Shown here in pieces: positions 3,488-49,905 of a stretch of DNA of 64,000 nucleotides. Origin of the DNA: Meloidogyne chitwoodi. Lineage: Eukaryota > Nematoda > Chromadorea > Rhabditida > Meloidogynidae. Within the stretch, counting starts at the first letter, position 1, and the number at the start of each line of letters is the position of its first letter. The notes under the pieces were generated by a model. That model was not told the DNA's origin and ran no database searches. It worked only from the letters and a program-made list of their open reading frames with translations. The stretch covers positions 1,550,001 to 1,614,000 of the forward strand of contig JACZZP010000003.1 in NCBI GenBank assembly GCA_015183035.1, in the 5' to 3' direction. A program made the position numbers and the translations under genes.

Positions 3488-6225
<2,738 letters not shown>

Positions 6226-36583: not shown

Positions 36584-36818
36584 GGGAGCAGATCAACTGA
36601 GTCCGGCACAACTGAGTCCCGCACAACTGAGTCCTACCTCAACTGAGTCCCGGCACAACTGAGTCCCAGTTGTAAATACCTTATCTGAACGGGTCCTCAT
36701 TGTAAATACCTCATCTGAACTGGGACTTAGTTGTGCGGGACTCAGTTGAGGTAGGACTCAGTTGTGCCGGACTCAGTTGTGTCGTACTCAGTCGTGCGGA
36801 CTCAGTTGAGGTGTACCC
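36584..36818. mobile_element. Fold-back element made of CAACTGAGTCC words, with 8-bp target duplication
   Basis: A 235-bp element. The left arm is five tandem copies of a 13-16 bp word (CAACTGAGTCCCGGCA); the right arm carries the same word inverted (TGCCGGACTCAGTTG) five to six times. Between the arms, a second word (TAAATACCTCATCTGAAC) is repeated twice. Ends are GGGAGCAGATCAACTGAG and, reversed, GGGTACACCTCAACTGAG. CATTGCAT flanks both sides exactly (36576-36583, 36819-36826). No coding capacity; the whole element can form one long hairpin. Confidence 0.75.
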
Positions 36819-36912: not shown

Positions 36913-38502
36913 ATGAATAAAAATAATAATGACAATGAAAATGAACCAGACACTGATTTAATACTTTCATTTCAAGGACAACAATTAAAATTAAATACTG
37001 AGGATGAAGGTTTTTTTTTGTTTTTTATTTAAAAAAACGTTTAATAGGCGAAGAAATTGCTGAAAAGATACGTGATTTTCCCAGATTAGAAACTTTTGAA
37101 ATGCGTGGAAATACTCTTGGATTCGATGCAGCAATTCCAATTGCTGCAGCACTTGATGCGCAACCTTATTTAAGGGTATTTACATTTAAATTAATTTTTA
37201 ATTTTGATTTCTAGAGGGCTTTGTGGAGCGATATGTTTACTGGAAGGTTAAAAGAGGAAATACCGAGGACACTAGTATGAAATTAATTTATTTTAAAAAA
37301 ATTTTTAATATTAGAAATGCCTTTGTGATGCTGTAAGTCTTAGTGGAGCAAGGCTTAAAGAGTTGGATTTAAGTGATAATGCTATTGGTCCGATGGCTGT
37401 CCCAGGCATTAAAGATTTTCTTGCTGGAGAGTCAGCTTTTGAACTTGAAATTCTTAAATTAAATAACTGTGGTCTTGGGATTGCTGGAAAGGTTTTTTAA
37501 AGAAAAATTAGTTTTATCCGATTTTATGGTAAAATATGGGAATGCATAATTTTTGGCTTACAATTTTGTAACATTCAAATTATTATTTTAAAGTTTATTC
37601 TTTTTCTAACTAAATTTATGGGAAAATTTACTTATTGTTATATATTTTTTTAATATAAAGCTTAAATCAAGAAATTGTTTATCTGAATAAATAGTAAAAT
37701 CTATAAATATACTCTGCAGAGATATTACCGCTTGGTTTAAGATACAAAAGTTTCTTGTAAATCAATTTTTTATTTTTCTTTAGACTGTTGCACAAAGTCT
37801 GATAGAATGTCACAAAAAATCACTCCATAATGAAACACCTCTTCAGTTGAAAATATTTGTCGCTGGTCGAAATCGATTAGAATATGAATCCACGGCAGCT
37901 TTGGCAGAGGCGTTTAAGGTATAACAAAATTTTAAATTTCTAATTTAAAAAATTAAAGGCCATTGGAACTCTTGAAGAAATTTCAATGCCACAAAATGGG
38001 ATAAGAGCTGAAGGGATTATTCAATTGGCAGAAGCTATTAAACAAAATTCTTCTTTGAAAAGGCTCAATTTGGGTGACAATACTTTTGGCAATCCAGGAG
38101 CTATTGGAATGGCTGCTGTATTGAAAGACCTTACACAACTTGAAATTGTCGATTTTAGTGATTGCCTTTGCCGTGATAAAGGTTCTATGGCAATTGCTCA
38201 TAGTTTGTCTTCTTCCAAATGTCCACTTAAAGAATTAAATTTATCTGGTGGTGAAATAACTACAGATGCTGCTAAAAATATTGTTAAGACTCTTCACACA
38301 CTAACTGGCCTTATCTCTCTTAAAATTGGCGTAAATTGCTTTGGATCAGAATTTTCGTCTTTTTTAGAATTTTCTGAACCATTTGGATTTGTTGATCTTG
38401 GAACCGAAAGGTTAAATTTAAAAAAAATATAGAAATAATTTTAAATTTAGTGATGATCAAGGTACTCTCAGCGAAGCTTCAGAAGATGAGGATGATGATT
38501 AA
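36913..38502 (+). CDS. RANGAP1: Ran GTPase-activating protein (RanGAP), short form
   Basis: Seven exons (36913-37009, 37048-37175, 37215-37274, 37315-37491, 37784-37918, 37959-38410, 38451-38502) give 366 aa. The signature RALWSDMFTGRLKEEIP and a run of leucine-rich repeats (LKELDLSDNAIG, LEILKLNNCGLG, LEEISMPQNGI, LKRLNLGDNTFG, LEIVDFSDC) are typical of RanGAP; the catalytic Arg is expected in the first repeats (ETFEMRGNTLG). It ends in an acidic tail (SEASEDEDDD). It stimulates GTP hydrolysis by Ran in nuclear transport. It lacks the C-terminal SUMO-accepting domain of vertebrate RanGAP1 and so resembles yeast Rna1. Its last exons and 3' flank are duplicated at 42.4 kb. Confidence 0.9.
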
Positions 38503-38675
38503 AACAATTGGATTTTTCTTATAGTGGACGTAAAAATACAGTTTTATATTCTTAATTACTAGTAATTTTATTGTTTAAAATTGATAATCAATTATAATTT
38601 ATTTAAATAAAAACGACCAAAAATAAGTTGTTCAAAAATATTTTTACAAAGATTAAATAATTTAAAAGTCAATAT
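38405..38675 (+). repeat. Segment duplicated at 42378-42650 (RanGAP 3' end)
   Basis: From the end of RanGAP exon 6 through exon 7 and about 170 bp of 3' flank, the sequence is over 90% identical to 42378-42650 on the same strand. The terminal coding block (GGTACTCTCAGCGAAGCTTC) is identical. The copy provides the 3' end of the chimeric gene at 41861-42480. Confidence 0.85.
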
Positions 38676-38910
38676 CTTATTTTTAATTAACTAATTGATA
38701 AGTTGTGGTTTGTTTATATTTTGTAGTATAATAATAGTGGAAGAGAAAATTGAGAGTTTGTGTTTTTAAAAGGAATAATATATAAACCGCGTATTTTAAC
38801 AGTCTATGTCCAGAGCTACGTCAACCAACGTCTATGAGCAGCGCCGCCAACGACTACGAGCAACGCCGACGAGCAACTCCAACGGTGTTGGTTCTATGAG
38901 CAGACGTTCT

Positions 38911-39147
38911 AGGAGCTACGCCAACGGTGGTGGTTCTAGTAACTTTGTTATAGGAGCTACGCCAACGGTGGTGGTTCTAGTAACTTATGTTATAGGAGCT
39001 ACGCCAACGGTGGTGGTTCTAGTAACTTTGTTATAGGAGCTACGCCAACGGTGGTGGTTCTAGTAACTTATGTTATAGGAGCTACGCCAACGGTGGTGGT
39101 TCTAGTAACTTTGTTATAGGAGCTACGCCAACGGTGGTGGTTCTATG
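38911..39147 (+). repeat. Minisatellite, six 41/42-bp units in alternation
   Basis: Unit starts (CCAACGGTGGTGGTTCT) fall at 38921, 38962, 39004, 39045, 39087 and 39128, so spacing alternates 41, 42, 41, 42, 41 bp. The 42-bp units carry one extra A (AACTTATG against AACTTTG). The pattern implies amplification of an 83-bp dimer. It lies directly before the decayed kinase. An open frame through part of it (38806-39036) is probably not a gene, since alternating 41/42 spacing breaks any frame. Confidence 0.8.
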
Positions 39148-39166
39148 AACTGACGTGCTAGGAGCA

Positions 39167-40293
39167 ATGTTGCTTGGAAAACCGATAGATGATCTCCTCC
39201 GGATGCAGCCAAAGCGCAGGTTTTCAGCCGTCACCACTCTTCGGATTGGTATTCAATTTATTTGAGTAAGAAGAATTTTAGATAAAAGTCAAATAATTAT
39301 ATACTTTAAAGGCCTTCTGCAGTCTCCATAAAGTTGGATTCATTCATCGCGATGTGAAACCAGCAAATATCGCTGCAGGCCACAAGCGGCCAGATCTCAT
39401 CTACCTCTTTGACTTTGGGTTAGCGCGTTTCATTTACACAGACGAGGACAAATTAATGCTGAGACCGCGTCGCAAGAAGGTGAAAATGAAACATTTCGTC
39501 CAAAAATTTCTTTATCTTCGCTTATTCTTTCAGATCCAGTTCCGTGGGACCTATCGCTACTGTTCGTTGAACGCGCAAAAGTGCATGGACCAAGGTCGAG
39601 TGGATGATTTTGAAATGTTTTGGTGTGTAATACTTATTTTTGAATATAAAATTTTTTGTAGTATACATTGATTGAATGCCGAAAGCGGAAGTTGCCTTGG
39701 ACTGGAATCAAACCAAAGGAATGCCAGGAAAAGAAGGAGACCATTACTAGCACCGAGTTGCTTGAAGTAAATTGTCCTTTTTTACCACTAACAAATTTTA
39801 TAATATTAGGATTGTCCGCCTTCCTTCTCTCGTATCATGGAGAATTTGCGCCCACTTGGATTCGCTGATGAGCCCAAATAACGGTTCTCTCATTCAGTGG
39901 CTTACTGAAGATTTGCAAGCGGACTCAGAAAGCAGCAATAGTTTTGAATGGCAGCGTGCCGGTCAGTCAGTCGCTCGTGTTAAGAATGTCGAGCTAAATG
40001 GGTGATACGGAGGCAAGTTTTTCATAATGTTTGTGTCTTTTAAATTTGAATAATTTTCAGGCAAAATCCGAAACTGTGCAGACAGATGTCAGTATCTTCA
40101 CTACATTGGCTGTTCCAGACGAAGAAGATGGGAGCACAGTTGAATACGATGACACCATTGAGAACATGCCACCTGAAAAAATATGAATATAGATGCGATC
40201 AAAGCAAAGCAGCAGGAGGGAGCGGCAGAGGAGGAGATGACGGCCATACCTCCAGAAGATACCAAGAAACCTTCAGAAGATGCCAAGAAATAA
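39167..40293 (+). pseudogene. Decayed tau-tubulin/casein-kinase-1-like protein kinase
   Basis: Blocks of a nematode TTBK/CK1-type kinase are clear: LGKPIDDLLRMQPKRRFS, the catalytic loop GFIHRDVKPANIAAG, FDFGLARF (DFG), QFRGTYRYCSLNAQ and VDDFEMFW, then KLPWTGIK. The whole N-lobe (Gly loop, catalytic Lys) is missing. An in-frame TGA (39263-39265) sits just before the first donor. Frameshifts occur near 39876 (ADEPK stop, while another frame continues NNGSLIQWLTEDLQADSES), near 40002 and near 40188. One later intron is GC-AG (donor near 40013). The remaining introns are normal. I judge it non-functional. Confidence 0.75.
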
Positions 40294-40930: not shown

Positions 40931-41057
40931 AATTTTAAGCTGCCGTGTTATAGGATTTAAAGGACTAGTCCTGTTGAGTCCTGTCCTCTAAAAATTTTCA
41001 AAACCCAATCCTGTAACAGCATCCTGCAAGTGATTTTTCCTCACTATAGTTCATACT

Positions 41058-41628
41058 GGTAAATAGGTAGTTGACCTGCAAAGGAAATTTGCAGAGCACA
41101 GGCAATATTTGCTTTTTTGGCGTCAGGAGAAGTTCACGCTTATTTTTCCTTCTCCGCTATAATATGCCTTTTGGCACTTGGAAATAAAGGTATAAAATAA
41201 TCAAAATTAATTAATAAAGTGAAAATATATTTATTTTAAAAATGACCAAAGATTAAAACAAATCGAAGCTTTTTGGAATAGATTAAGATTCAGAATTGTC
41301 CGTCAGATGAGACATATTACAGAAACTGAATTACCTAAATATTTGTCGTTTTACTGGTTTTTATCCCTCCATTATAATTGCATTAAAGGTTGTTATCCCC
41401 TTGATATTTTAGAAATATATTTGAGAATGTTGTCCAAAATTTATGTTCTTTGATCATTTATAAAATAAATGTTTTTAATTTTGATTATTCTATCCCTTTC
41501 TTTCCAAGTGCCAAAAAGCATATTATAGCGGAGAAGGAAAAATAAGCGTGCCCTTCTCCTAACGCCAAAAAAGCAAATATTGCCTGTTCTCTGCATTCCT
41601 TTGCAGACAGGTAGGCTACCTATTTACC
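41058..41628. mobile_element. MULE-like DNA transposon remnant with 9-bp target duplication
   Basis: A 571-bp element with inverted ends of about 130 bp (GGTAAATAGGTAG...; shared inner blocks GCAATATTTGCTTTTTTGGC and CCTTCTCCGCTATAATATGC), about 85-90% identical. GTTCATACT flanks it exactly on both sides (41049-41057, 41629-41637). The plus-strand interior (about 41250-41450) reads IEAFWNRLRFRIVRQM and ELPKYLSFYWFL, the look of a MULE transposase C-terminus. Long ends plus a 9-bp duplication support Mutator-like; the family assignment is inferred. Confidence 0.72.
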
Positions 41629-41670
41629 GTTCATACTATGTATAAATTAACAGGTTTATAAAAATGTTAA

Positions 41671-42163
41671 AAATTTTATATAAAAACGCCCGCTAAATTA
41701 TTACTTTAGTTAAAACTACAATAAATTATGTACATCTTTGTCAGTTAGTGATTGATGGTTTAATTTTTTATTGATTGTTTTTCAGCTAGATTTTTTTTCG
41801 TTTTTAAGCGTTTTAAAAATATGATTTTTCTTTAAATATCTTTTCCAGATTTTTATTATAATGTCTAGTGGTCTTAACCTTACAGCTACAACGTCTACTA
41901 CTAATAAGACTACTCAACAAAACATCTCTTTATCTCCTCCAAGAAAGCAAATATCACTTCCAAAACCTCCTCCACTATCAAAAAAACACAGGCCGGAAAA
42001 AATTACAACCTCTCTTTTGGACTTCAATATCGTTAAGAAGAGCGAGTTCGATGTAAAGGTTAATGTTTTTGTCTTTTTGAGAAGTTTTTGCAAATTTTAG
42101 GAATATTTTAATCCTTTATAAAATTTAAAAAATAATCATGTTTAGGAAGAGCAACGAGTTGTT
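41671..42163 (+). repeat. Duplicate of the SUMO-protease promoter and 5' coding region
   Basis: 41671-41863 match 47613-47807 (promoter, ACGCCCGCTAAATTATT through the ATG), and 41867-42163 match 48305-48600 (SENP exon 3, intron and start of exon 4), both about 88-92% by eye. The intervening 47808-48304 is absent from this copy, so its ATG is joined directly to the SGLNLTATTS block. Confidence 0.85.
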
Positions 42164-42480
42164 AATTATTCTTTTGAAAGAGATTTTTTTCCACTTAAAA
42201 CTTCAACACCTAATAAACAAATTAAAAAGAAAAGGAAGAAGAAAATGAAAAAGAAATGGAAAAGAAACAACGTGAGCTTATAAAATTATATTAAAAGTAA
42301 ATTAATTTTTATTTACTTTAGAGGATGTGCGGCATCAAAAGGAAGATAGAACCGCTTAGATCTTCTGATTTTGGAAGCGAAAGGTTAAATTTAAAAAACA
42401 ATATAGAATATTTTGAAATTTACTTTAGTGATAATGAAGGTACTCTCAGCGAAGCTTCAGAAGATGAGGATGATGATTAA
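41861..42480 (+). CDS. Chimeric gene: SUMO-protease N-terminal segment fused to RanGAP acidic tail
   Basis: Four exons (41861-42058, 42146-42271, 42322-42383, 42429-42480) splice in frame to 145 aa. Exon 1 and the start of exon 2 copy the disordered region of the SENP gene at 47.8 kb (SGLNLTATTSTTNKT, KKHRPEK, LLDFNIVKKSEFDVK, EEQRVVN). A new Lys-rich stretch follows (KKRKKKMKKKWKR). Exons 3-4 copy the end of RanGAP (SEASEDEDDD). All introns are GT-AG, and the SENP-type promoter and RanGAP-type 3' flank are both present, so it may be expressed. It has no protease or LRR domain; function unknown. Confidence 0.65.
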
Positions 42481-42710
42481 AACAATTGGATTTTTCTTAT
42501 AGTGGACGTAAAAATACAGTTTTATATTCTTAATTACTAGTAATTTTATTGTTTAAAATTGATAACTAATTATAATTTATTTAAATAAAAATAACCAAAA
42601 ATAAGTTGCTCCAAAATATTTTTATAAAAAGATTAAATACTTTTAAAAATCAATATAAATTTTGATTTATTTTATGGAGATATATATACAGATTGACATT
42701 TTATTTATTT

Positions 42711-47606: not shown

Positions 47607-47804
47607 TCGCTCAAAAAATTTTATATAAAAACGCCCGCTAAATTATTGTTTTAGTTAAAACAACAATGGATTAGTTGTATTTTGTTAGTTAGTGATTGAT
47701 GGTTTAATTTTTTTGTTGATTGTTTTTCGGATTGATTTCTTTCGTTTTTAAGCGTTTTAAAAATACGATTTTTCTTTAAATATCTTTTCCAGATTTTTAT
47801 TATA

Positions 47805-49558
47805 ATGACTAGCACTGAGATAAAAGATTTTAAAATTCGTGCAACTATTTCTTTTTCTTATTTGCCAAATTATTCTAATATTAAAAAAACAACGTTCAGA
47901 AAAGGCCTTATAAAATTTGATTCAAAAGAGAAAGATTTTGTCGTTACATTTGATAACGTCAAAAGTAATCCTGTTAGTTTCAGCATTTTTAATTATAATG
48001 TTCAGTATTCTAAATTTTAACCTAACATTTTTAAGTACGTAATATCAATAAGCAGCATCAAACAACCAGAAAGAGAGCGATGTCCTCGTGGTATCATGTA
48101 TATGTTCAAATTTGACATGCCAGATCTGAATTTCAATGAGTGTTTTCTCAGAGCCATTTCAGAGCATGACAAACAACTGATCCATTCATACATTATCAAG
48201 GCTGTTGGAGGTTTGTTTTTAGCTTTAATTATGCTAACTTTTAGATTTAATTATTATGAATATATTATTTAGTAAAAAAGACGTTACATAAACAAGTTTC
48301 CACCAGTGGTCTTAACCTTACGGCTACAACGTCTACAACTAATAAAACTAAACAAAACATCTCTTTATCTACTTTATCTCCTCCAAGAAAGCGAAGATCA
48401 CCTCCAAAACCTCCTCCACCATCAAAAAAACACAGGCCGGAAAAAGTTACAACCTCTCTTTTGGACTTCAATATCGTTAAGAAGAGCGAGTTCGATGTAA
48501 AGGTTAATGTTTTTGTCTTTTTAGGTTTTTCAAACTAAGAATATTTTAATCCTTTATAAAATTTAAATATTTCTCATATTTAGGAAGAGCAACGAGTTGT
48601 TAATGATTCTTTTGAAAGGGATTTTGTGTCGCCGGAACCTACAACAATTGTCTCAAAATCGCCCGAAACTCCGAAAATAGTTGTCCCGCCTGGAGAACAG
48701 CAACTTCCTGATGATTATACTCGAGATGATTTTTGGACAAAATTGAAGGATAACCAGCAAGTTAGAACAGGAGTTTGTGGAGAGTGGGTGAAGGTTCGTA
48801 ATTTTTTATGGATTGTCAATTAAAAATTTATTTTTAACATTTTAGGGCAAAGTTGAGCATCTAACTATGGAAGGTCTTCTCTGTCTTCGCGATGGTGAAT
48901 GGCTTAATGCAGATCTGATTGATGCATATCTACATCAATTATGTCGGCGTACACCTCTAAACACATTTAACAACAAAGAAAATTCTCCTGATAAAGGTTA
49001 TGCTACAGATAATATTGTTCAATATATACCTACATATGGATTGCTTAGTTACGAAAAAAAGAAGGAAATACCCACAAAATGGTATTGGAAGATGGAGGGC
49101 GTCGAAGCCGTCCTAGCTCCAGTGCATTTGCATAATAGTCATTGGGCTATGTCAATTGCAAAAATAGATAAGAAGGAAATAATTTTAATGGATTCGATGA
49201 ATAATGGATTTGAGGGCAGTGATAAAAGAGATTTTATGGAAACATTTTTGTAAGTCCTTTTTGCCTCAATAATATTTTTGTTCTTTTCTTTCAACTGTTT
49301 TGAATTATGTTTTTCTATATCAGGAACATTCTCATGCAGGCTGCTAATCAATTTACACTTAGCATTGGAACAATAAAGGATTGGACCTTAAGAGAGATTC
49401 TAGATGTCCCGCAACAACTGAACGGAACAGACTGCGGGATTTTTGCTCTATTGTTTGCACGCTATGAAATTGAAGGACGATGTTTAGATTTCGACCAAAA
49501 ACACATGTGTTATTTTAGGAGGCAAATTTGCAAGGATTTGATTTCATCCATCTTATAA
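47805..49558 (+). CDS. SUMO-specific protease (Ulp1/SENP, peptidase C48)
   Basis: Six exons (47805-47999, 48036-48210, 48273-48502, 48584-48793, 48846-49249, 49324-49558) give 482 aa. The C-terminal half is a Ulp1 domain: WLNADLIDAYLHQLC, catalytic His in NSHWAMSIAKID (about 369), Asp in ILMDSMNN (about 386), oxyanion Gln and Cys in VPQQLNGTDCGIFAL (Cys about 441). It would remove SUMO from targets. The first about 125 residues form a beta-rich region of unknown type, followed by a disordered Pro/Lys-rich linker (SGLNLTATTS...). A copy of the promoter and linker was used to build the chimeric gene at 41.9 kb. Confidence 0.85.
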
Positions 49559-49736
49559 TACTATATATGTTGCATTACATTTTATTGTTTACCCAGAATT
49601 ACCATTATATCTGAATTTTTCCATTTGAATATTTTAAATTTTTAATCTGACTGCTTTTTTTCATAATAGATAGTAGATGTTTGTTTCGTTTCTATTTTGA
49701 AATATTAAAAAGGAAAAGTCAATAAAAAGGACATTA

Positions 49737-49823
49737 AGAAATGTGGGCCCTCCTGCGGACAATTTTTGCGGACAATATAATATAATTGTGCAATAATTGT
49801 CTGAAGGTGGGCCCCTATTTCTT
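49737..49823. mobile_element. Short inverted-repeat MITE with TGCGGACAAT words
   Basis: An 87-bp near-palindrome: AAGAAATGTGGGCCCTCC at the left and, reversed from the right, AAGAAATAGGGGCCCACC, continuing into GCGGACAAT/CAGACAAT. The block TGCGGACAATTTTTGCGGAC closely matches the inner terminus of the Merlin-like element at 20699-21326. No clear target duplication. It lies between the SENP stop and the truncated GIPC gene. Confidence 0.6.
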
Positions 49824-49905
49824 AATAAGCGCCAAAAAAATAATTTAAAATTTATAATATTTCTGAAAGAGGTTATATTATAATTTAGTTAACGCTCAAC
49901 AGGCT

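Follow-up and report, generated by a model that had tools for sequence, protein, structure and literature searches.

A probable young chimeric gene duplicate combining a sister of a SENP-like gene with the RanGAP 3′ end in Meloidogyne chitwoodi

Chimeric duplicates are a common kind of gene copy in nematodes and an ordinary route of new-gene origin. In a review covering Caenorhabditis elegans, 116 of 290 young duplicate pairs were classed as chimeric, with a suggested corrected figure of about 23%; these are young paralogues in which a partial gene copy is joined to sequence from another locus (PMC3449122). Chimeras of Drosophila yakuba unite the 5′ end of a neighboring gene with the 3′ end of another through tandem duplications that ignore gene borders, are polymorphic, and were measured by RNA-seq (PMC5460883). 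The locus described here resembles both. Unlike the C. elegans cases, it belongs to another nematode, and both donors can be pinpointed inside a span of about 13 kb; unlike the D. yakuba chimeras, it is represented by one assembly and carries an extra internal deletion. Because the donors, the order of the parts, and the breakpoints can all be read over that distance, the locus is a good case of nematode gene assembly, in which introns, a promoter region, and perhaps a trans-splice site were carried along. Among the matches listed for Meloidogyne, chimeric genes, exon shuffling, SUMO protease, and RanGAP in the literature, none concerned this locus, judging by title.

We analyzed a window of 64,000 nucleotides (contig C23, positions 1550001 to 1614000; GC content, 26%), and feature coordinates are given within it. 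An earlier note had described positions 41861 to 42480 as an intact chimeric gene of four exons, and this was borne out: the exons join into 438 nt in frame, encoding 145 aa plus a stop, and all three introns are GT-AG. Exon 1 (41861 to 42058, plus strand, as are all gene features below) fuses the ATG straight to a disordered linker and ends at a GT donor with the frame kept. Exon 2 (42146 to 42271) holds the end of the linker and then a Lys-rich tract. Exon 3 (42322 to 42383) has a CGIKRK-type start, like exon 5 of the gene family described below, and contains the RanGAP join; exon 4 (42429 to 42480) encodes the acidic tail of RanGAP and ends in the stop codon TAA. The full chimera occurs once in the genome (47.48 Mb, 30 contigs), and its coding sequence comes from two separate loci, both still in place. 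From the comparisons below, which establish its structure, donors, and retained frame at the sequence level, we consider it quite probable that the locus is a real, single-copy, young chimeric duplicate, whose likeliest state is near neutral, possibly transcribed, with no established role. That it is an assembly artefact is highly improbable: the locus lies mid-contig, and the copies are 2 to 9% divergent with indels, which rules out repeated reads.

The similarity of three copied blocks to DNA elsewhere in the window is, by their E values, far beyond chance. Positions 41669 to 41868 match 47614 to 47812 of a SENP-like gene (90%, E 7e-72), 41867 to 42187 match the linker of that gene with its intron at 48305 to 48625 (89%, E 3e-121), and 42349 to 42656 match the 3′ end of RanGAP at 38376 to 38675 (90%, E 9e-115). 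The first block comprises the upstream copied region (41669 to 41860), with the 5′ UTR and a TATA-like TATATAAAA at 41677. The SENP-like gene (47805 to 49558, six-exon model) encodes the family N-terminal half followed by a SENP1/2-type C48 protease (PF02902, E 1.5e-17; closest solved structure, SENP1, E 4e-14), and its sister sequence to the chimera spans the promoter region, N-terminal domain, and linker (47614 to 48625). Relative to this gene, the start of the chimera lacks 494 bp (47813 to 48306, or 47811 to 48304), with one base altered and AG at both edges of the deletion. The N-terminal domain of family exons 1 and 2 is gone, and what the earlier note had called the SENP N terminus comes down to the ATG and a few codons at most. 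The chimera thus has the same promoter region and linker as its SENP1/2-type neighbor but neither the protease nor the N-terminal domain. SENP-gene homology ends at 48625, where the chimera continues into family exons 4 and 5. The present-day SENP gene was therefore rejected as the donor of the whole 5′ half; the attribution of promoter, ATG, and linker holds for a sister of the SENP gene but not for that gene itself. A processed retrogene or retrocopy was also rejected, since the chimera keeps three introns, each with a homologue in the donors or the family.

The Lys-rich center of the chimera (42188 to 42348) had been regarded as new, but it aligns with exons 4 and 5 of three paralogues on contig C23, at about 2.336, 2.553, and 2.681 Mb, with a 74% DNA match that spans the center and reaches 42345. 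Identity to the paralogues is 76 to 83% in exon 4 (chimera 42188 to 42271), 86 to 91% in intron D, and 63 to 77% in exon 5, the last being a short match across 26 to 27 nt. The preceding part of exon 2 (42146 to 42187) is 95% identical to the SENP gene, in which positions 42188 to 42348 have no match. Because this center aligns with the paralogues and not with the SENP gene, the parent of the 5′ half would be a short-type gene, which on these comparisons is a sister of the SENP gene in the parts that they share. Over the 150 nt upstream of the ATG, the chimera is 92% identical to the SENP gene, versus 78 to 81% to other family members. In the paralogues, the linker stands between the family N-terminal domain and a Lys-rich end, with matching intron positions; the chimera has the linker, the Lys-rich exon 4, exon 5, and the same intron positions.

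A pyrimidine-AG, TTTTCCAG, ends 12 nt upstream of the chimera ATG, and we take it to be a possible trans-splice acceptor; a pyrimidine-AG is present at the equivalent place in two paralogues, L003 and L009, and absent from the third, L008. L003 is complete (221 aa, all junctions GT-AG). In L008 every junction and a stop codon are present, but the family start position carries no ATG, and the model of L009 is without its last exon. The family N-terminal domain gave no Pfam match above the cutoff in two short-type proteins and no PDB match above the cutoff in one. With the protease domain as query, no match appeared near the three paralogues; on C23 the search hit the domain's own locus alone, and two weak matches (36 to 39%) lay on contigs C1 and C2. 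Since the three paralogues carry the same N-terminal half without a nearby protease, the SENP-like gene itself looks like a fusion of that half with a protease; either this fusion or the short type may be the older form. The 5′ part of the SENP linker exon is 95% identical to L008 and 76% to L009, and the 3′ part is 85% identical to L008 and 93% to L009; by such comparisons the paralogue family is mosaic. As a side observation, positions 4351 to 5285 of L008 compared with other members are 93 to 96% alike in intron A and 72 to 78% alike in exon 1, with dN/dS of 0.7 to 0.8 in the N-terminal domain, a pattern of either fast-evolving exons or converted introns.

RanGAP, proposed earlier as the donor of the tail, was confirmed in that role. 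The neighbor is identified by PDB 9b62_G (E 7e-89) and has one match in the genome. Its donor segment (38376 to 38675) runs from the end of the penultimate exon through the last intron, last exon, and 3′ UTR to the start of a kinase-like unit, and the 3′ copied flank of the chimera (42481 to 42656) repeats the junction, with RanGAP 3′ UTR to 42567 and the start of the dispersed unit from 42568. Exon 4 of the chimera is identical to RanGAP 38451 to 38502 at 50 of 52 nt. In positions 42349 to 42383, 8 of 34 aligned bases are mismatched, mostly in the first half; because this is far more than in the last exon (2/52) or the 3′ UTR (2/87), the RanGAP-derived coding sequence probably starts near 42366. 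The RanGAP content is thus the last 17 residues and a few preceding ones; the chimera has its tail in common with RanGAP/Rna1p but is without the leucine-rich repeats, hence no GAP surface. The frame is preserved across both joins, the N-terminal deletion and the RanGAP join, which we infer to be about a one-in-nine coincidence if the joins were free.

From 38590, the RanGAP flank is the kinase-like unit (Pkinase, E 5.5e-8 for 39312 to 39479). The junction at 38589/38590 is common to RanGAP, the chimera, and a contig C3 copy of the unit, which argues that the DNA of the latter two came from the RanGAP locus, and for the RanGAP part we regard the direction from RanGAP to the chimera as established by these sequence comparisons. 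The C3 copy begins 5 nt upstream of the RanGAP stop codon and extends over 1.7 kb (to 40233) at 85.5%. Besides RanGAP, C3, and the chimera, the unit matches six places, one of them weakly (72%); in four that were examined (85 to 96% by piece), the left neighbor differs and the RanGAP 3′ UTR junction is missing. This dispersal and the start of the C3 copy suggest another route, in which the unit, as a mobile segment, took the RanGAP 3′ end along and inserted into the short-type gene within its last exon. Such a transfer is conceivable but unlikely; the distance of about 3 kb between RanGAP and the chimera favors local duplication. Just past the junction, the kinase part has changes common to the chimera and C3 that are absent from RanGAP and the four copies. 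The 3′ UTR of the chimera differs from RanGAP at 2 of 87 positions and from C3 at 4 of 89. On this contrast, some conversion is likely. The unit (38590 to 40290), which is spread over several contigs, also has a tandem repeat of about 83 bp inside it.

Under the local-duplication reading, the order of events that we infer is as follows. A short-type family gene, sister of the SENP gene, would have lost its N-terminal-domain exons through a simple deletion. Its last exon would then have fused, with the frame kept, to the penultimate exon in a copy of the RanGAP 3′ end, which would have brought along the start of the adjoining kinase-like unit. The join most likely came from a local tandem or segmental duplication. 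If a duplicated segment ran from the RanGAP interior across the kinase and into the family gene, the family 5′ half would come to lie ahead of the RanGAP 3′ half, and a second kinase, since lost, would be left behind the chimera. Self-comparison of 36 to 52 kb against the window found no second kinase remnant. Of the two blocks, that from RanGAP looks the younger: mismatches are 6/177 versus 23/273 in the SENP block (P = 0.048), or, with the kinase part included, 13/263 versus 23/273 (P = 0.12). Given this possible age difference, a single event is poorly suited.

Is the chimera under selection? The dN/dS comparison that had been suggested in the earlier note gave a pairwise value of 0.46 against the SENP gene, with a neutral-like chimera branch, and amino acid constraint could not be shown. 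Linker changes number 6 nonsynonymous and 1 to 2 synonymous on the chimera branch and 0 to 1 and 2 to 3 on the SENP branch, small numbers that exclude the deletion-join codon and include one SENP change in an ambiguous gap and one poorly polarised silent site. Five of the six amino acid changes on the chimera branch fall at codons invariant in the SENP gene and all three paralogues. The changes on this branch show no departure from the neutral site ratio (P = 1.0, with numbers too small to exclude constraint). The contrast with the SENP branch gave P = 0.033 under the most favorable sorting and 0.088, 0.13, or 0.49 otherwise; as P depends on how ambiguous changes are sorted, the contrast is not established. 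Judged from sequence, the linker changes look unconstrained. This is consistent with a dead pseudogene that is open merely through its youth, a serious possibility although short of even: in neutral simulations with substitutions only, at 2 to 4.2% divergence, the frame and splice sites survived in 24 to 51%. On the other hand, the promoter-proximal block is intact. The linker is free of frameshifts although the noncoding blocks carry indels, which makes some coding constraint possible. Linker indels relative to the SENP gene are just 3 and 9 nt. The noncoding blocks shared with that gene have 9 indels in 273 aligned bases, none a multiple of 3; these blocks are AT-rich, and the count varies with the alignment, another of which places 2 indels in the intron instead of 4. 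For the 234-nt linker, the probability of no frameshift is 0.02 at the noncoding indel rate and 0.38 at one-fourth of it; for 438 nt, the corresponding values are 0.0007 and 0.16.

The retention of the frame, of every splice site, and of the TATA-like sequence and pyrimidine-AG upstream of the ATG, together with linker indels in threes only, would also fit a functional new gene: a basic nuclear protein under selection, acidic at its tip, that might modulate RanGAP or the SENP paralogue. A VKEE string, which we take to have a SUMO-consensus shape, is common to the chimera and the SENP protein. Nonetheless, this reading is improbable, given the branch changes above and a product without a recognised domain. 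The predicted protein has a pI of 9.9 and no Pfam domain beyond a sub-threshold HMA match (E 0.15); neither the C48 catalytic domain with its His, Asp, and Cys (Pfam scan of two proteins, the neighbor positive) nor the leucine-rich-repeat GAP domain is present. From its sequence, the product, if made, should be small, very basic, probably disordered, acidic at the tip, and at most nuclear targeted. The earlier proposal of a decoy in SUMO and nuclear-pore biology arose from the names of the donors and found no specific support, the protease and leucine-rich repeats being absent and the copied RanGAP tail containing no lysine. That biology matters only if the product is made and kept. A broader scheme, in which a lineage-specific, nuclear-type family keeps one promoter and linker but repeatedly swaps C-terminal halves (Lys tail, SUMO protease, and RanGAP tail), the chimera being one of several functional outputs of an exon-exchange hotspot on C23, seems more doubtful still.

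Next to the copied region lies a MULE-like MITE (41058 to 41628) flanked by a 9-bp target duplication, GTTCATACT, at 41049 to 41057 and 41629 to 41637; presumably it is a MULE, a name that we base on this duplication. The element is nonautonomous, with terminal inverted repeats of 130 to 200 bp, and has at least seven other near-full-length copies and many more partial ones (40 of 205 candidates scored). Capture of the Pack-MULE type was rejected, as the element and its duplication stop at 41637 and the copied block begins at 41669. The element is a separate insertion, adjoining the chimera and away from either join. Elsewhere in the window, imperfect palindromes at 36596 to 36792 (82%) and 49733 to 49826 (80%) may be MITEs as well.
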